Origin: Stenotrophomonas maltophilia R551-3
Lineage (GTDB): Bacteria; Pseudomonadota; Gammaproteobacteria; Xanthomonadales; Xanthomonadaceae
Length of the DNA: 64,000 nt
Direction of reading: 5' to 3'
Assembly (NCBI RefSeq): GCF_000020665.1
Contig: NC_011071.1
Span: 3,338,501 to 3,402,500 of the forward strand
Shown: positions 12,111 through 21,390 of the stretch, in pieces
Position numbering within the stretch: position 1 is the first letter of the stretch
Layout: each line of letters opens with the position of its first letter
Position numbers and translations under genes: made by a program
The notes under the pieces: model-generated
Told to the model about the DNA's origin: nothing
Databases searched by the model: none
The model's input: the letters and a program-made list of their open reading frames with translations, nothing else

Positions 12111-14234
12111 TCAGGCTGCGCGACGCGTCACGGCGGAAGCTGCTGCGCCTTCCACCTTGAACACCGACACCGACGTGGTCAGTGCATGCGCCTGTTCTTC
12201 CAGTGCGCGGCTGGCGGCAGTGGCTTCTTCCACCAGCGCGGCGTTCTGCTGGGTCACCTGGTCCATCTGCACCACCACCTGGTTGACCTGCTCGATACCG
12301 GCGGCCTGTTCCTTGCTGGCCGCTGCGATGTCGCTCATCAGCTGGGTGGTTCGCGAGCTGGCCTGGGCCACGCGCGCGATCGCGGCTTCCGATTCAACGG
12401 TCACCGCCAAGCCACTCTTCACCTTGGCAGCGGCGTCTTCGATCAGCTCCTTGATCTCCTTGGCGGCGACACCGGCACGCTGTGCGAGCGTGCGCACTTC
12501 GCTGGCAACCACGGCAAAACCACGGCCCTGCTCGCCTGCACGCGCGGCTTCCACTGCAGCATTCAGCGCCAGGATGTTGGTCTGGAACGCGATGCCGTCG
12601 ATCACCGTGGAGATTTCCGAGATGCGTGCCGAGGACTGGTCGATCTCGCCCATCACCGATGCCATCTGTGCCATCGCCTGCTCGGTCTCGCGTACGGCGG
12701 CACCGGCGGCATGCGCTTCACTGTCGGCCTGACGCGCCAGCTCGGCGTTCTGGCGCACGGTGGAGGTCAGTTCCTCCATCGATGCAGCAGCCTCTTCCAG
12801 ATTGGCTGCCTGCTGCTCGGTGCGGCGCGACAGGTCGTTGTTGCCGGCGGCCAATTCCTGCGCCGCGTTGTTGATGCTGTCGGCAGCCACCTGGATGCCC
12901 CGCACGATGCCGGTCAGCTGTGCGGTGGTGGTGTTGGCGTCGTCGCGCATGCGCGCGAACACTCCGTCGTACTCGCCGTCCATGCGTGCGGTCAGGTCGC
13001 CGTGCGAGATCGCGCGCAGCACGTCGGAGACATCGGCGATGCTGGCCTGCGAACTGGCCATCATGCCGTTGAGGTGTTCGACCATCGCCTTGAACTGGTA
13101 CTGGAACGCAGCGGCGTCGCCACGCATGCTGAAATCACCGGCGCGCGCGGCCCGAGCCAGCTCATCGATCTGCGCGTTGATCGCCATCAGGCTCTGCTTC
13201 ACTGCGGCCAGGGTACGGGTCAGCGTGCCCTTCTCGCCCGGGTAGTCGGGCAGGTCACGGCTGAGGTCGCCGATGGCGTAGCGCTGCATCACCTCGGCCA
13301 TCAGCAGTTCCACCTGCACGTGCGACTCGACCAAGCTGTTGGTGGCCTGCACCATGCGACCGAAGTCACCGGGGAATGCACTGGCGTCCATGCGATAGCG
13401 GATCGCACCGGCCTCGTGCTGTTCGGCCATCTGCAGCTGCGCGCCGATCGCCGCCTGCACGCTCTGGCGCACACTGGCCATGGCTTCACCCAGCTGAGTC
13501 AGTTCATCGCGGCCACCAAGGCGGAACTCCTGGTCCAGCAGTCCCTTGGACAGACGCTCGGCCAGGTTCACCGCGCGGGCCAGCGGACCGGTCAAGCTGC
13601 GGCCGATCATCACCGAGGCACCGATGCCCACCAACAGCGCGACGCCGCCCAGCACCAGCAGCTGCAGCAGGCTGCGCTCGCCCAAGCGGATTGCCTCGGC
13701 GGCGGCATCACGGCTTTCCTTCTCCTCAAAGTCCACGCCATCGGACAGCGCCTTGTTCCAGCCATTGGCCGCTTCCTGCACCGGGCCCAGGGTCAGCGCC
13801 ACGGCGCCCGGGTAGTCACCCTGCTCCATCAGTTCGCTGGTCTGCTTGTTGAGCGGGCGCGCAATGGCACGCTTGGCGGCGATGGTTTCGGCAATGGCCT
13901 TGCCGTCGGCGTCGCTGGGCAGCGCCTGGTAGGCGGTCCAGCTGGCCTCGTAGCGCTTCACCAGATCAGCGATGCGCTGCTCGTCGTGGCCACGGTCTTC
14001 ACCCTGGCGGATCAGCATCTCGCGGCGCACCACCATCATCTGGTTGTTGGCATCGAGCATCTGCGACAACAGGCGCACCTTGGCCACGCTGACGTCGACC
14101 ACCTGCTGCATCGCGCGCTTCTGCACGACACTGGCGGTGGCGCCGGTGGCCACCACGGCGGCAACCAGCAGCAGCAACAGGCCAAAGCCCAGCCCAAGAC
14201 GCCAGGCAACCCTGACGTTCCTCAAGTAGTTCAT
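12111..14234 (-). CDS. Methyl-accepting chemotaxis protein
   Basis: This 707-residue chemoreceptor has a first membrane segment (about residues 12-33, [18 protein letters not shown]), a periplasmic four-helix-like sensor region of about 150 residues, and a second membrane segment (about 188-212, [17 protein letters not shown]) followed by a HAMP domain. A long linker with further HAMP-like helices follows. The C-terminal signalling domain has the invariant hairpin tip with [19 protein letters not shown] and downstream methylation helices. There is no C-terminal CheR-binding pentapeptide. The start at 14234 (MNYLRNVR) gives the usual basic cytoplasmic leader; a TTG four codons upstream is less likely. 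A sigma-28-type -10 box precedes the gene. No other chemotaxis gene is adjacent, so this is an orphan receptor; its ligand is unknown. Confidence 0.94.
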
Positions 14235-14263
14235 GGGGGTATCCAAAACGGGGGGATGCGCCC

Positions 14264-14291
14264 TTATCGGCCACGGTCCGGCTGGGCTTGA
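14264..14291 (-). promoter_or_regulatory. Probable sigma-28 (FliA) promoter of the chemoreceptor gene
   Basis: On the minus strand an exact GCCGATAA (-10 consensus for sigma-28) lies at 14271-14264, 29 bases before the start codon. A partial -35 (TCAAG, 14291-14287) lies upstream, one base beyond ideal spacing. FliA control is usual for chemoreceptor genes. Confidence 0.55.
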
Positions 14292-14385
14292 TGGGGGCTG
14301 CCGCCCCCGGCCGGGTGCGGTTCAGAGAGGTGATGGCGGCAAGTGCTGGCGCAACCAACCCTAAAGTTATCCCCCCCGCTGCCAA

Positions 14386-14410
14386 GGGTGCCCGCCTGCA
14401 GCGGGCGCCC
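14386..14410. other. GC-rich hairpin just upstream of the McrB-like gene
   Basis: A ten-pair stem (GGGTGCCCGC at 14386-14395 with GCGGGCGCCC at 14401-14410, one G-U pair, 5-base loop) is followed by TTAGAAT. It could insulate the mcrBC-like pair from upstream transcription or lie within its promoter; TAGAAT at 14412-14417 is a possible -10 but no -35 is evident. Confidence 0.45.
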
Positions 14411-14451
14411 TTAGAATCGAATCGACCCTTGAAGATCAATGGATACATCTG

Positions 14452-15801
14452 ATGAGCCACGGTTTTCCCCACCAGTTGATCATTTTCGGCCCACCGGGAA
14501 CCAGCAAGAGTTACAAGGCCCGGCATGAGAAGACGCCGATGCTCGGCATTCGCCCGGGCGAGGTCATCCCCGTGACGTTCCACGCCGAGTTTGGCTATGG
14601 CGATTTCGTCTCCCGCCTGCTGCCATTGTCCGAGGGCAACAGGGTCAATTATGAAGTGCATGCCGGCCCCTTCATCCGCGCGTTGGCACTTGCCCTCCAT
14701 CGTTCAGAGCACGGCACGGCCGATTCGCCGCCTCGCAACGTTGTCCTGCTCATTGACGAAATCAACCGCGGCAACTGCGCGGAAATCTTCGGCGACATCT
14801 TCCAGCTGCTGGACCGTGACGATGACGGACAATCCAGCTATTCCGTCTGTGCCTCGAAACTGACGGTGCAGGCGCTGATCAACGAGATCCGCGAACTTGA
14901 AGCTCGCGATGACAGAGACTCCTCCACGCTGATCGGACGTATCGAAAATGAGCGCATGCTGAGGCTTCCGGCGAATCTCTACCTGATCGGGACCATGAAC
15001 ACTGGCGACGAGTCGATCTTCTTCATGGATTCGGCATTCAAGCGCCGCTGGAACTTCGAATTCAGTCCAGCCGAGTTCAACGCGGTTCCCGCAGCGCAGG
15101 CCAATGCAACGATCGAAGGCCACCCGTCGGTCACCTGGAAGATGCTGGTGGATGATCTCAATGCGATGATCGTCGAGAAATGCGCCTCTCCGAATCTCGA
15201 CGACAAACTGATCGGCCCCTGGTTCATCAAGGCGCGGTCCGTCGCTGCGAGGACACCGCCTGCGACCCTGGAACAGACGCACGCAGCATCGATTGCCGAA
15301 CTGCGCCTGCTTGCCCCGGGGGCTGCGAAGAGCATGCAGGGCGCGGACTTCAGCCAAAGGTTCGACAAAGAGTTCTGCAAGCTTCGGGAATCCTGCAATA
15401 GCGAGACCCTGAAGGCGATCGACACGCTCTCGGGCTTTGACGAATCCGCCGAGCGCAGATTGAAGGCCATTGCCTTCGCCATCAGCGGTAGCTCTCCCTA
15501 CTACAAGTCAAAGAAAAACTTCCCGAGGACCAAGGACGGGATGCTCATCGAGGATTTCGTCGAAGCGCTTGCTGGGACACAGGAAGTCCACCCCACCGCT
15601 CACCATATCGCCGCCGGTGATATCGAGGGGAAGCTCTTTCTCTACCTGTGGGACAACGTTTTCGAGAGGGACAAGTCCCCGCTCGCAGAATGGCTTGGCA
15701 TTCCCGCGGAGTCACTGAGGACCTTCGGACAGTTTGCTGCCCGGCGCGATGAATTCATCCGCAGCTTCACTGTCTCGGCAGAGCTGCATGCAGCTGCATG
15801 A
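14452..15801 (+). CDS. McrB-like AAA+ NTPase of a two-gene McrBC-type restriction system
   Basis: This 449-residue protein has the hallmarks of the McrB family: Walker A GPPGTSKS (residues 13-20), Walker B with the McrB signature LLIDEINRGN (99-108) followed by AEIFGDIFQLL, the sensor GTMNTGDES (180-188), and the arginine-finger segment DSAFKRRW (193-200). McrB subunits form hexameric GTPase rings that drive DNA translocation for the McrC nuclease in modification-dependent restriction. Unlike E. coli McrB there is no N-terminal DNA-binding domain: the ATPase begins at residue 8. Instead about 200 residues follow the core, and they may hold the target-recognition part (inference). Its stop overlaps the start of the nuclease gene by 14 bases, showing translational coupling. 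Codon use looks somewhat less GC-biased than neighbours, consistent with acquisition by transfer. Confidence 0.88.
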   Translation: MSHGFPHQLIIFGPPGTSKSYKARHEKTPMLGIRPGEVIPVTFHAEFGYGDFVSRLLPLSEGNRVNYEVHAGPFIRALALALHRSEHGTADSPPRNVVLLIDEINRGNCAEIFGDIFQLLDRDDDGQSSYSVCASKLTVQALINEIRELEARDDRDSSTLIGRIENERMLRLPANLYLIGTMNTGDESIFFMDSAFKRRWNFEFSPAEFNAVPAAQANATIEGHPSVTWKMLVDDLNAMIVEKCASPNLDDKLIGPWFIKARSVAARTPPATLEQTHAASIAELRLLAPGAAKSMQGADFSQRFDKEFCKLRESCNSETLKAIDTLSGFDESAERRLKAIAFAISGSSPYYKSKKNFPRTKDGMLIEDFVEALAGTQEVHPTAHHIAAGDIEGKLFLYLWDNVFERDKSPLAEWLGIPAESLRTFGQFAARRDEFIRSFTVSAELHAAA

Positions 15802-17170
15802 CGTCAGCGTCGTCGCGGCCGGGTCCAGCGCTGTGGGCCTGTTCGTGGAAGATGGCCGCACCGAGCTTCGCGTGCCGCATGGCATGCCAACCTGCACCGC
15901 GCCCCGCGACGCATTCCGTCTGCTCTACATGGCGTTTGCGGCCTTCAGCAATGTCCAGTCCAATGTCGCGCACACACAGCAACAGGATGGCGTCGAGGCA
16001 GGCAGTGTCGGGCGAGGGCTGGCAAAGGCCCCTGCCTCGTTCGTCGACGCGTATGGCATTGATTCGCTGTTCAACCGGTCAAACCCATTGCGGCTGCTGT
16101 CACTTCGTCCACAGATGGCACGACGGCAGGATGGCGATCTGAAGCATGCAGACCGCCACCTCCACCATGCGTTGTTCAACGTCGACGACGCCCCTTTTTT
16201 CCCGAAGCTTCCCACTCGCCGAAGCGTATGCGAACGCGGGACCGCCGACATCGTCGGCCTGTATTTTTTCCTGGCTGAGGACTTCTACCGCAGTCTGCTG
16301 CGGATCGATCCCGGCGTCATCTGGGGGCGCTTCACCATGGATGCCCTGCAGCGTGCGACGGACTTCCGCCATCGCCATCTGCGCCCGGGCGACTCGCTGC
16401 ATGAAGGTGATGGATGGGCACAGGAGCTGCTGCAGCGGCGACTCCAGCAGCTCCTGAGAACGTGCTACAGGCAGGCAACGCTGCGCAGTACAGAGTTCCT
16501 TGCCCTTTACGCAGCACTGGAGCGCTACCTTCATCCTGCACTCGCAGGCAGCGTGCAGCAGGGTCAGGTCTGGGGCATGCGGGATTTCTGGCCCGTCTGG
16601 GAATCCATGTGCCTGCATGAAGCCCTGCAGCAGGCCAGCGACACGCAGGACACTTCCATCGTCACCTGTGACGGCACCCATCTCCCACACCATCCCATGG
16701 CCGTCGAACACCGCGACACCTGGAATCAGCTTCAGCATTCAATGTTCGCCCACAACGGAATCTGCCGCCGGCCCGACCTGCTGCTGCAACGGGGACCCGA
16801 GTACGCCGTGGTCGATTTCAAGTACTACCCCATCGCACCCGACTGGCAGTGGCGACGCAACCGGGAAGAGGACGACAGAACCCGGCCCGTGAAAGAGAAG
16901 GCGCAGAAGGATCTGGACAACATCGAGTTGTATGGGCTTCTGTTGCATCGCCACCTCGCTGCAACGGAGCGCGTGTTGCCAACGATCACCCTGGAGTTCT
17001 GGCTCCCCGGAGAGGAAGCGGAGCGGAGTGACATCCGCAGTTCGCCGGCCTGGAATCCCCCCCTGTCGGTGGTGACACTTCCTTTGCTGGACGTGATCAG
17101 GCGCTATGGTGAGCGCCATGCGTTTGCGATGCGAACCCGCAGCATGCCCGGAGCCGCCAAGGCGGCGTGA
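15788..17170 (+). CDS. McrC-like PD-(D/E)XK nuclease partner of the McrB-like ATPase
   Basis: This 460-residue protein has an N-terminal and middle region (about 1-310) of unrecognised sequence, as is usual for McrC relatives. A C-terminal nuclease core follows: RRPDLLLQ with Asp330, then YAVVDFKYY with Asp343 and Lys345 (the PD...D-x-K catalytic pattern), then KAQKDLDNIELYGLLL, the motif-IV-like helix of McrC/RecB-type nucleases. By analogy McrC binds the McrB ring and cuts DNA when translocation is blocked. The ATG at 15788 was chosen because it overlaps the upstream stop and starts a plausible N-terminus (MQLHDVSVV); an earlier in-frame start would lie well inside the ATPase gene. A weak hairpin with TTTT at 17177-17201 may end the operon. 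The target specificity is unknown. Confidence 0.82.
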   Translation: MQLHDVSVVAAGSSAVGLFVEDGRTELRVPHGMPTCTAPRDAFRLLYMAFAAFSNVQSNVAHTQQQDGVEAGSVGRGLAKAPASFVDAYGIDSLFNRSNPLRLLSLRPQMARRQDGDLKHADRHLHHALFNVDDAPFFPKLPTRRSVCERGTADIVGLYFFLAEDFYRSLLRIDPGVIWGRFTMDALQRATDFRHRHLRPGDSLHEGDGWAQELLQRRLQQLLRTCYRQATLRSTEFLALYAALERYLHPALAGSVQQGQVWGMRDFWPVWESMCLHEALQQASDTQDTSIVTCDGTHLPHHPMAVEHRDTWNQLQHSMFAHNGICRRPDLLLQRGPEYAVVDFKYYPIAPDWQWRRNREEDDRTRPVKEKAQKDLDNIELYGLLLHRHLAATERVLPTITLEFWLPGEEAERSDIRSSPAWNPPLSVVTLPLLDVIRRYGERHAFAMRTRSMPGAAKAA

Positions 17171-17259
17171 AGGTAGAGGCTCAGGTCTGGGTCAGCCTTT
17201 TCACGCGGGCTGCTCGTGCTCGGCTGGCATGGTGGAAGGGCATTCCCTTGGAGCCCCCC

Positions 17260-18216
17260 ATGCTTTCAGCCCGCGTCGCTGTGCTGTCCCTCACCCTGCT
17301 GTCGCCTGCTGCCTTTGCGCAGGTCGCGTCGCCCGCCCTGCCCGCCCCCATCGCCGAAAGGGCCGGCCCGGATGTCGGACCACGCTCCGCCCTGCACGCC
17401 CAGGTGCTGCTGGATCGCGCGAATTTCTCTCCCGGCCAGATCGATGGCGAAGTGGGCAGCAACCAGCGGCGCGCAGTGTCGGGCTTCCAGGCGGCGCACG
17501 GATTGACCGTAACGGGTGAAGTGGATGACCCCACCTGGAAGGCCCTGCAGGCTGATACGGTCGAGCCGCTGGCCAGTTATACGCTGACCAGCGAGGATGT
17601 CGCCGGCCCGTTCCAGGCCATACCGAAAGGCCCCGCCGCACAGGCCAGGCTGAAATCGCTGGGCTTCAGCAGTGTGGAAGAAGCCCTGGGCGAGCGTTTC
17701 CACGCCTCCCCTGAGCTGCTGAAGGCGCTCAATCCGGGCATAGATCTGGCCAAGGCAGGCAGCCGCATCCAGGTACCCAACATCGCCCCGGCGGCATTGC
17801 CGAAGGCGGCGAAGATCGTGGTCGACAAATCCGACTCCACCCTGCAGCTGCTGGACGCGCAGGGCAAGCTGATCGCGCAGGTGCCGGTGTCATCCGGCAG
17901 CCAGCACGACCCGTTGCCGATCGGGGAATGGAAGATCCTGGGCGTGTACCGCGACCCGCCGTTCCACTACAACCCGAAGCTGTTCTGGGATGCCCGCAAG
18001 GGCGAAAAGAAGGCCACGCTGCCGCCAGGCCCGAACAATCCGGTCGGACGGGTCTGGATCGATCTGTCCAAGCCGCATTACGGCCTGCACGGCACGCCTG
18101 AACCCGGCCACGTGGGCAAGACCGAATCACATGGCTGTGTGCGCATGACCAACTGGGATGCAGTGCGCGTGGCCGATGCAGTCGATACCTCGGTACCCGT
18201 GGTGATGCAGGAGTGA
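17260..18216 (+). CDS. L,D-transpeptidase (YkuD domain) with peptidoglycan-binding domain
   Basis: This 318-residue exported protein has a signal peptide (MLSARVAVLSLTLL then AAFAQ), a peptidoglycan-binding domain of helix-turn type (residues about 48-95, with GEVGSNQRRAVSGFQAAHGL), and a LysM-like middle section (ELLKALNPGIDL). The C-terminal YkuD domain carries the catalytic motif HGTPEPG followed by SHGCVRMTN, with the nucleophilic cysteine. Such enzymes make 3-3 cross-links or attach proteins to peptidoglycan in the periplasm. The ATG at 17260 has a GGAG site seven bases upstream and begins the signal peptide, so the longer frame to 17167 is rejected. The M23 peptidase gene follows after four bases, so the two are surely cotranscribed. 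Confidence 0.93.
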   Translation: MLSARVAVLSLTLLSPAAFAQVASPALPAPIAERAGPDVGPRSALHAQVLLDRANFSPGQIDGEVGSNQRRAVSGFQAAHGLTVTGEVDDPTWKALQADTVEPLASYTLTSEDVAGPFQAIPKGPAAQARLKSLGFSSVEEALGERFHASPELLKALNPGIDLAKAGSRIQVPNIAPAALPKAAKIVVDKSDSTLQLLDAQGKLIAQVPVSSGSQHDPLPIGEWKILGVYRDPPFHYNPKLFWDARKGEKKATLPPGPNNPVGRVWIDLSKPHYGLHGTPEPGHVGKTESHGCVRMTNWDAVRVADAVDTSVPVVMQE

Positions 18217-21068: not shown

Positions 21069-21118
21069 TTATCCGGGTTTCCGGGGTCCGGTGCCACCTT
21101 TCCGACGGGCGGCTTCAC

Positions 21119-21390
21119 CGGCCGGTCAGGCGCCCCGCCCGGTGGTGCCGGCCGCTGGCCGGCAATGCCAACCAAGGTTGGCATCTACCAGAGCCGGGCC
21201 ACGCATGTGCCGGCCAGTCAGACGCCTCCCGGTAGTGCCGGCCGCTGGCCGGCAATGCCAACCAAGGTTGGCATCTACCAGAGCCGGGCCACGCATGTAC
21301 CGGCCGGTCAGGCGCCTCCCGGTAGTGCCGGCCGCTGGCCGGCAATGCCAACCAAGGTTGGCATCTACCAGAGCCGGGCCACGCATGTGA
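21119..21390. repeat. Three 90-bp tandem repeats, each holding two different SMAG palindromes
   Basis: The period is exactly 90 bases, shown by GCCGCTGGCC recurring at 21151, 21241 and 21331. Each unit holds a TGCCGGCCGCTGGCCGGCA palindrome, then ATGCCAACCAAGGTTGGCAT followed by CTAC, then a near-identical spacer with GAGCCGGGCCACGCATGT. The units differ by a few bases. Because 90 is a multiple of three, open frames run through it on both strands, but they only translate the repeat. Confidence 0.9.

Follow-up and report, generated by a model that had tools for sequence, protein, structure and literature searches.

BsuMI of Bacillus subtilis, in which the YdiS-YdjA pair is accompanied by methylases and by YdiR as a third restriction gene, and LlaJI of Lactococcus pNP40 are the closest described systems to the two-gene unit analyzed here. 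This unit was found in Stenotrophomonas maltophilia R551-3, in a stretch of 64,000 nucleotides (contig NC_011071.1; G000 C1:3338501-3402500) that is part of a closed 4.57-Mb genome and is referred to below as the window. It consists of the overlapping genes for an McrB-family AAA+ motor and a predicted PD-(D/E)xK nuclease.

According to the available text of PMC7680126, the McrBC model involves a hexameric motor, the McrC finger in its pore, stimulated hydrolysis and then cutting. LlaJI-type enzymes are described as reading an unmodified site via an N-terminal B3 domain (available parts of PMC12707154 and PMC7680126). Within LlaJI, specificity was assigned to R1.LlaJI, which was reported to be without intrinsic GTPase activity in vitro (available text of PMC1459862), which calls for caution in assuming a GTP-driven translocase for the window motor. 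The CoCoNuTs, relatives of McrBC, are characterized by an NxD motif and coiled-coil fusions and are predicted to act on RNA (available text of PMC11090510). The census of McrBC systems in that source took RE_LlaJI as an alias of McrC, and relatives of the window pair may be among its entries.

The interpretation favored here, with a probability of about 0.53, is that the two genes form a restriction pair from the LlaJI/BsuMI branch, with no companion methylase found in the families searched and no N-terminal reader, in which an insert in the lid of the motor is the most likely candidate for target reading. No description of this pair, nor of an McrB lid insert as target reader, was found in the literature searched. 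The interpretation in an initial annotation of the window, which suggested a possible uncharacterized McrBC-like subtype, is partly supported; the branch to which the pair is assigned is that of LlaJI and BsuMI.

The motor and its nuclease partner

The motor (open reading frame A, ORF A) carries the Walker A motif GPPGTSKS from residue 13, the signature IDEINRGN at residues 101-108 and GTMNTGDES at 180-188, the motifs and the position of Walker A being as first annotated; the NTGD within the latter is the NxxD-type signature by which McrB AAA+ proteins are recognized. No domain precedes Walker A and the ORF listing contained no longer upstream frame. The protein matched AAA_5 in Pfam (4.5e-7), the McrB model of NCBIfam (5.4e-15, but with 55 bits against a model cut-off of 637) and, in a sequence search of structures, the solved McrB chains (about 1e-16 to 1e-15). 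Of 8000 candidates that were scored, 2891 proved to be relatives at E<=0.001. The best structural match of the predicted model was YdiS of the YdjA-YdiS complex (343 residues, with the alignment beginning at residue 27), followed by TgMcrB and EcMcrB. The ratio of nonsynonymous to synonymous substitution rates (dN/dS) of the motor was 0.19 between the window and Stenotrophomonas pavanii. As judged from its sequence, the motor is an McrB-family ring ATPase, with homology far beyond chance; its lack of an N-terminal recognition domain also agrees with the initial annotation.

The nuclease gene (ORF B) overlaps the end of the motor gene, as had been noted, and the two frames are likely to be translationally coupled. 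The start at ATG 15788 was preferred over TTG 15734 of the mechanical frame listing, and a methionine start at this ATG is common to seven homologues aligned with the nuclease. The residues D330, D343 and K345, annotated earlier as the PD-(D/E)xK core, were exactly placed and are invariant in 25/25 rows of alignment A6. The predicted model places this core in the C-terminal part, after some 260 N-terminal residues that are McrC-like. Its best structural match was YdjA (over residues 4-444), and the next were TgMcrC and EcMcrC, from the same complexes as for the motor model; archaeal McrC was matched over residues 5-439, and the root-mean-square deviations were large. The first 300 residues, initially regarded as uncharacterized, are thus covered by these matches, with poorly modelled segments at ~59-82 and ~107-148. 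The dN/dS of the nuclease was 0.21 in the same comparison.

By sequence, neither Pfam nor PADLOC gave a match to the nuclease with an E limit of 1, and NCBIfam gave only a chance-level value of 0.15. Nothing credible was found among solved structures with the nuclease either as a single sequence or as a profile. No match was found in phage records, and no relative was confirmed in viral contigs. Since the nuclease is missed by standard annotation, such pairs are easily overlooked among defense systems. The profile search yielded 28 relatives, again well above chance expectation, and reached proteins annotated as "LlaJI family restriction endonuclease". PF09563 (RE_LlaJI) was matched by 4 of the 27 members of the wider nuclease alignment (best 8.1e-6, E limit 10), not by the window nuclease itself nor anywhere in its genome, and B. 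subtilis was the sole match to this family among 14 control genomes. In hhalign, the wider alignment and LlaJI R2 were matched across 74 columns in the nuclease core with a probability of 90; the narrow alignment A1 reached 11.2 against R2, and the probability against the single E. coli McrC sequence was 2.7. It is thus the wider alignment, together with the structural matches, that points to a McrC/LlaJI kinship. The McrC profile PF10117 found no match in the window nuclease or in the window genome. S. pavanii carries an additional canonical McrC (PF10117) elsewhere in its genome (L140, G053 C9:75125-75970).

A nuclease of the present lineage directly follows a motor without N-terminal domain in all seven inspected loci with both genes, namely those of the window, S. 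pavanii, G457, Nostoc, Hymenobacter, Geminocystis and G776. The order kept in these loci indicates that the pairing is old. In two of them, on the Nostoc plasmid pNOS3756_2 (L006 6713-13942) and on a Hymenobacter plasmid (L007 3558-10693), the distant pair has an ATPase gene of the HerA type (DUF87) or FtsK/SpoIIIE type in its vicinity, along with hypothetical genes; these loci may represent a larger, multi-gene version of the system.

The lid insert as candidate target reader

Target reading had been suggested to reside possibly in the 200 residues after the ATPase core or in the first 300 residues of the nuclease. A location after the core agrees with the present results, but these residues consist of an insert of about 127 residues within the lid region and then of terminal lid helices that belong to the AAA+ fold. 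The insert has the G..F lid motif on one side and the terminal lid helix on the other and measures ~130 residues in the window and G457 motors; a short linker occupies the site in E. coli McrB, R1.LlaJI and the Acinetobacter, Nostoc, Hymenobacter, Geminocystis and G776 proteins. In the model, almost every block from residue 271 on had a predicted local distance difference test score of roughly 90 or higher (76 for 261-270), with predicted helices at 278-292, 297-314, 317-327 and 366-374 and predicted strands at 342-345, 348-351 and 383-386.

The insert diverges faster than the core of the motor. In 24 near-clade sequences, the window included, its mean identity was 31% versus 62% for the core, and it was lower than that of the core in 276/276 pairs; G297, S301, F304, I340, Y350 and Y351 are invariant. 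Between the window and S. pavanii, dN was 0.092 in the insert and 0.023 in the core, a difference of about fourfold. No credible Pfam or PDB match to a known reader domain was obtained for the insert in sequence searches. The best PDB sequence match, TIP20 (0.0074 over 40 residues), was judged to be chance and rejected as a relative.

The best 120 of the 2891 motor relatives were classified by motif spacing, an N-terminal extension being defined as 60 residues or more, and 112 were classifiable (8 were not). A short N-terminus together with the insert was found in 88, an N-terminal extension without insert in 13, neither in 11, and both in none. Insertions in GTPase domains have been described as frequent and as likely to encode specificity domains, although the available text of PMC11090510 does not state their placement; the general idea is already in print, and its application to the present lineage is proposed here. 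Two motor relatives, the McrB-like P0070 and P0080, begin with a cold-shock domain (PF00313) and lack the lid insert.

Under the favored interpretation, the motor would form a nucleoside triphosphate-driven AAA+ ring, putatively a hexamer by analogy with McrBC and fueled by GTP or ATP. The N-terminal half of the nuclease would plug into this ring as McrC does, with a finger domain in the pore, and would stimulate hydrolysis at the NxxD motif of the motor. The lid insert would read the target, and DNA would be cut by the C-terminal PD-(D/E)xK domain after activation of the motor. If the insert is indeed the reader, the pair would provide a compact two-protein system for testing target choice, motor and cutting with few parts.

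Several observations weigh against this role of the insert. The 11 motors with neither extension nor insert argue against a strict swap of one for the other, and the Nostoc, Hymenobacter and Geminocystis motors likewise lack both the N-terminal domain and the lid insert. The Geminocystis and G776 partner genes, which belong to the nuclease lineage, strengthen the pairing yet add further insert-free loci. Because of these sister loci, a broader evolutionary proposal, in which the LlaJI/BsuMI lineage moved its reader from the N-terminus into the AAA+ lid and lost its methylases, so that a Type II module became a two-gene modification-dependent defense, is tentative and lies well below even odds. 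If it were true, recognition would take place in a motor region that shifts at every round of hydrolysis, and reading would be coupled directly to translocation.

The same sister loci bear on the possibility that the nuclease reads the target, either through the N-terminal part that resembles McrC or through the segments with a poor model, and that the insert merely shapes the ring or docks the nuclease. The Nostoc, Hymenobacter and Geminocystis nucleases are longer (521, 567 and 581 residues, respectively, versus 460 in the window), and residues 261-460 of the window nuclease also diverge rapidly (dN 0.15 against S. pavanii). This possibility is nevertheless doubtful, given that the N-terminal part is better conserved (dN 0.066) and resembles the ring-plugging part of McrC, and that the subunit assigned to specificity in LlaJI is the motor (available text of PMC1459862).

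Additionally, the span between Walker B and NxxD was 95-108 residues in sister motors free of both insert and extension (P0130, P0132, L052 5989-7092, L011 1297-2352), versus 80 in motors of the window type; this longer span is another possible place for an extra function.

Distribution, insertion site and companion methylases

Of the 91 genomes of the genus, two carry the nuclease, namely that of the window and that of S. pavanii (G053, on a contig of 743,850 bases), so that the comparison of strains foreseen in the initial annotation found a patchy pair that is not present in all strains. At broader scales, the motor profile retrieved 3/297 genomes in the family and 2/398 in the phylum sample (E<=1e-60), and the single motor sequence 2/369 in the class sample (E<=1e-40). 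The pair lies between a chemoreceptor gene and a cell-wall gene for an L,D-transpeptidase in both the window and S. pavanii, in line with the flanks first described, and a Pfam scan of the window proteins found no integrase among its immediate neighbors. In G457 it is located elsewhere, with genes of glycogen metabolism (starch synthase and GlgB domains) on one side and a gene of the isochorismatase family on the other.

The flanking transpeptidase is carried by 64 of the 91 genomes, and 30 of these loci were examined, allowing for unaligned transpeptidase N-termini in the distances. The pair was present in 2, the flanks were within about 210 bp of each other in 20, a gap of 0.76-0.99 kb was found in 6, and larger genes in 2 (encoding a CARDB protein in L044 and a DUF6602 protein in L045). 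Two of the six gap loci were read further and contained an Ion_trans_2 channel gene (L046) and a MerR-type regulator (L047). The interval between chemoreceptor and transpeptidase (14247-17260) is therefore a small variable site in the genus. Homology with seven empty loci and one small-gene locus ends between 14271 and 14351 and is back between 17191 and 17309. The G+C content of the pair genes (0.587 and 0.628) and their G+C at third codon positions (0.74) are below those of all eight neighboring genes measured (0.76-0.91 for the latter), which fits an acquired pair.

Coordinates of the pair and its flanking genes (positions in the window)
Feature	Position	Strand	Length	Basis or remark
McrB-type AAA+ motor protein (ORF A)	14452..15801	+	449 aa	
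Lid insert of motor, residues ~262-388	15235..15615	+		Motif spacing, model, divergence; predicted ordered alpha+beta domain
McrC/YdjA/LlaJI-R2-like nuclease (ORF B)	15788..17170	+	460 aa	
Overlap of motor and nuclease frames	15788..15801	+	14 bp	Sequence
Chemoreceptor gene, left flank, outside the system	12111..14246	-		Pfam MCPsignal 7.1e-44
L,D-transpeptidase (YkuD), right flank, outside the system	17260..18216	+		Pfam YkuD 8.6e-21

The L,D-transpeptidase frame was listed as 17167-18216, and its true start, judged by eye, is probably ATG 17260. A sigma-70 promoter scan of the locus found none. A palindrome upstream of the pair (14377-14419) was dropped as a candidate element, not being conserved in S. 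pavanii.

Companion methylases were searched for in four families, PF00145, PF01555, PF02086 and PF02384; of the 14 control genomes, 10, 11, 4 and 13, respectively, contained a match. PF00145, PF01555 and PF02086 were absent from the closed window genome, in which one Type I-like PF02384 gene (G000 C1:1188572-1189618) was the sole match, and none of the four families was found in the S. pavanii carrier (99% complete, about 20 contigs). Genes of PF00145 and PF02086 do occur in G457, the third carrier, where about 241 kb separate the pair from the closest of them on its contig. No one of these families is common to the three carriers, which makes a protective-methylase mode unlikely and a modification-dependent or foreign-sensing mode more likely. 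Without a protective methylase, the pair would probably act on modified or otherwise foreign-looking DNA in a Type IV-like manner, with a presumed anti-phage function.

A Type II-like system with an unlinked methylase or one of another family, or a LlaJI-type system decaying after methylase loss, is improbable. Cytosine methylases do adjoin LlaJI on pNP40 (two) and the LlaJI-like system of Acinetobacter, and the search covered four families, with one PF02384 gene in the window genome. Loss of the methylase while a Type II enzyme stays active should, however, kill the host, and both pair genes are intact with a dN/dS of about 0.2, showing no sign of decay.

A rough tally in viral contigs was also made but not relied on, because the short group was small and partly hand-chosen and only three methylase queries were used. 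The best 80 of 97 distant ATPase relatives plus seven other loci gave 87 loci, 18 of which had no ATPase frame fitting the patterns and were excluded. Among the remaining 69, the ATPase was extended at the N-terminus in 60 and short in 9; a cytosine-methylase match lay somewhere in the retrieved sequence in 28 of the former and 2 of the latter.

The least probable of the alternatives is an RNA-directed, abortive or housekeeping role outside DNA restriction, for although the function is predicted from sequence and some McrBC relatives, the CoCoNuTs, are predicted to act on RNA (available text of PMC11090510), the NxxD motif, the intact nuclease core and nearest characterized relatives that are DNA restriction enzymes speak against it, and the patchy presence among congeneric genomes argues against housekeeping.

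Elsewhere in the window, a 90-base direct repeat in three copies, 94% alike, was observed at 21118-21389 between the adenylosuccinate synthetase and Band_7 (HflC-like) genes.

Comparison with described systems

Like the CoCoNuTs, the window pair is McrBC-derived. Membership in that group, which the initial annotation had named as a result that would speak against its proposal, was rejected because the window motor has NxxD and not NxD and no long coiled coil is present in its predicted model. The McrBC systems of E. coli and Thermococcus (Type IV) share with the pair the McrC-like fold and PD-(D/E)xK core, as far as predicted, but the window pair lacks their N-terminal domain for reading modified bases, carries the lid insert and has no PF10117 match in its nuclease. 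If the insert is the reader, the pair would illustrate how McrBC-like enzymes shift between protection by a methylase (Type II) and dependence on modification (Type IV).

LlaJI likewise combines an McrB-like motor and a PD-(D/E)xK partner in adjacent genes, and the MNTxD motif and the (D/E)DK..G..F lid motif are common to R1 and the window motor. It differs in R1, where 270 residues precede Walker A and the lid linker is short, and in its two adjacent cytosine methylases, no counterpart of which was found for the window pair in the families searched.

BsuMI differs in its YdiR and methylases, without counterpart at the window locus (nor was PF00145 found in the genome), and YdiS, at 343 residues, would leave little room for a lid insert. 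Nevertheless, YdiS has, like the window motor, almost nothing before its AAA+ core, and is a precedent for the missing N-terminal domain noted in the initial annotation. The YdjA-like fold is predicted in the window nuclease, and the YdiS-YdjA complex (integrative model 9a5m) is the best structural match of both window proteins.
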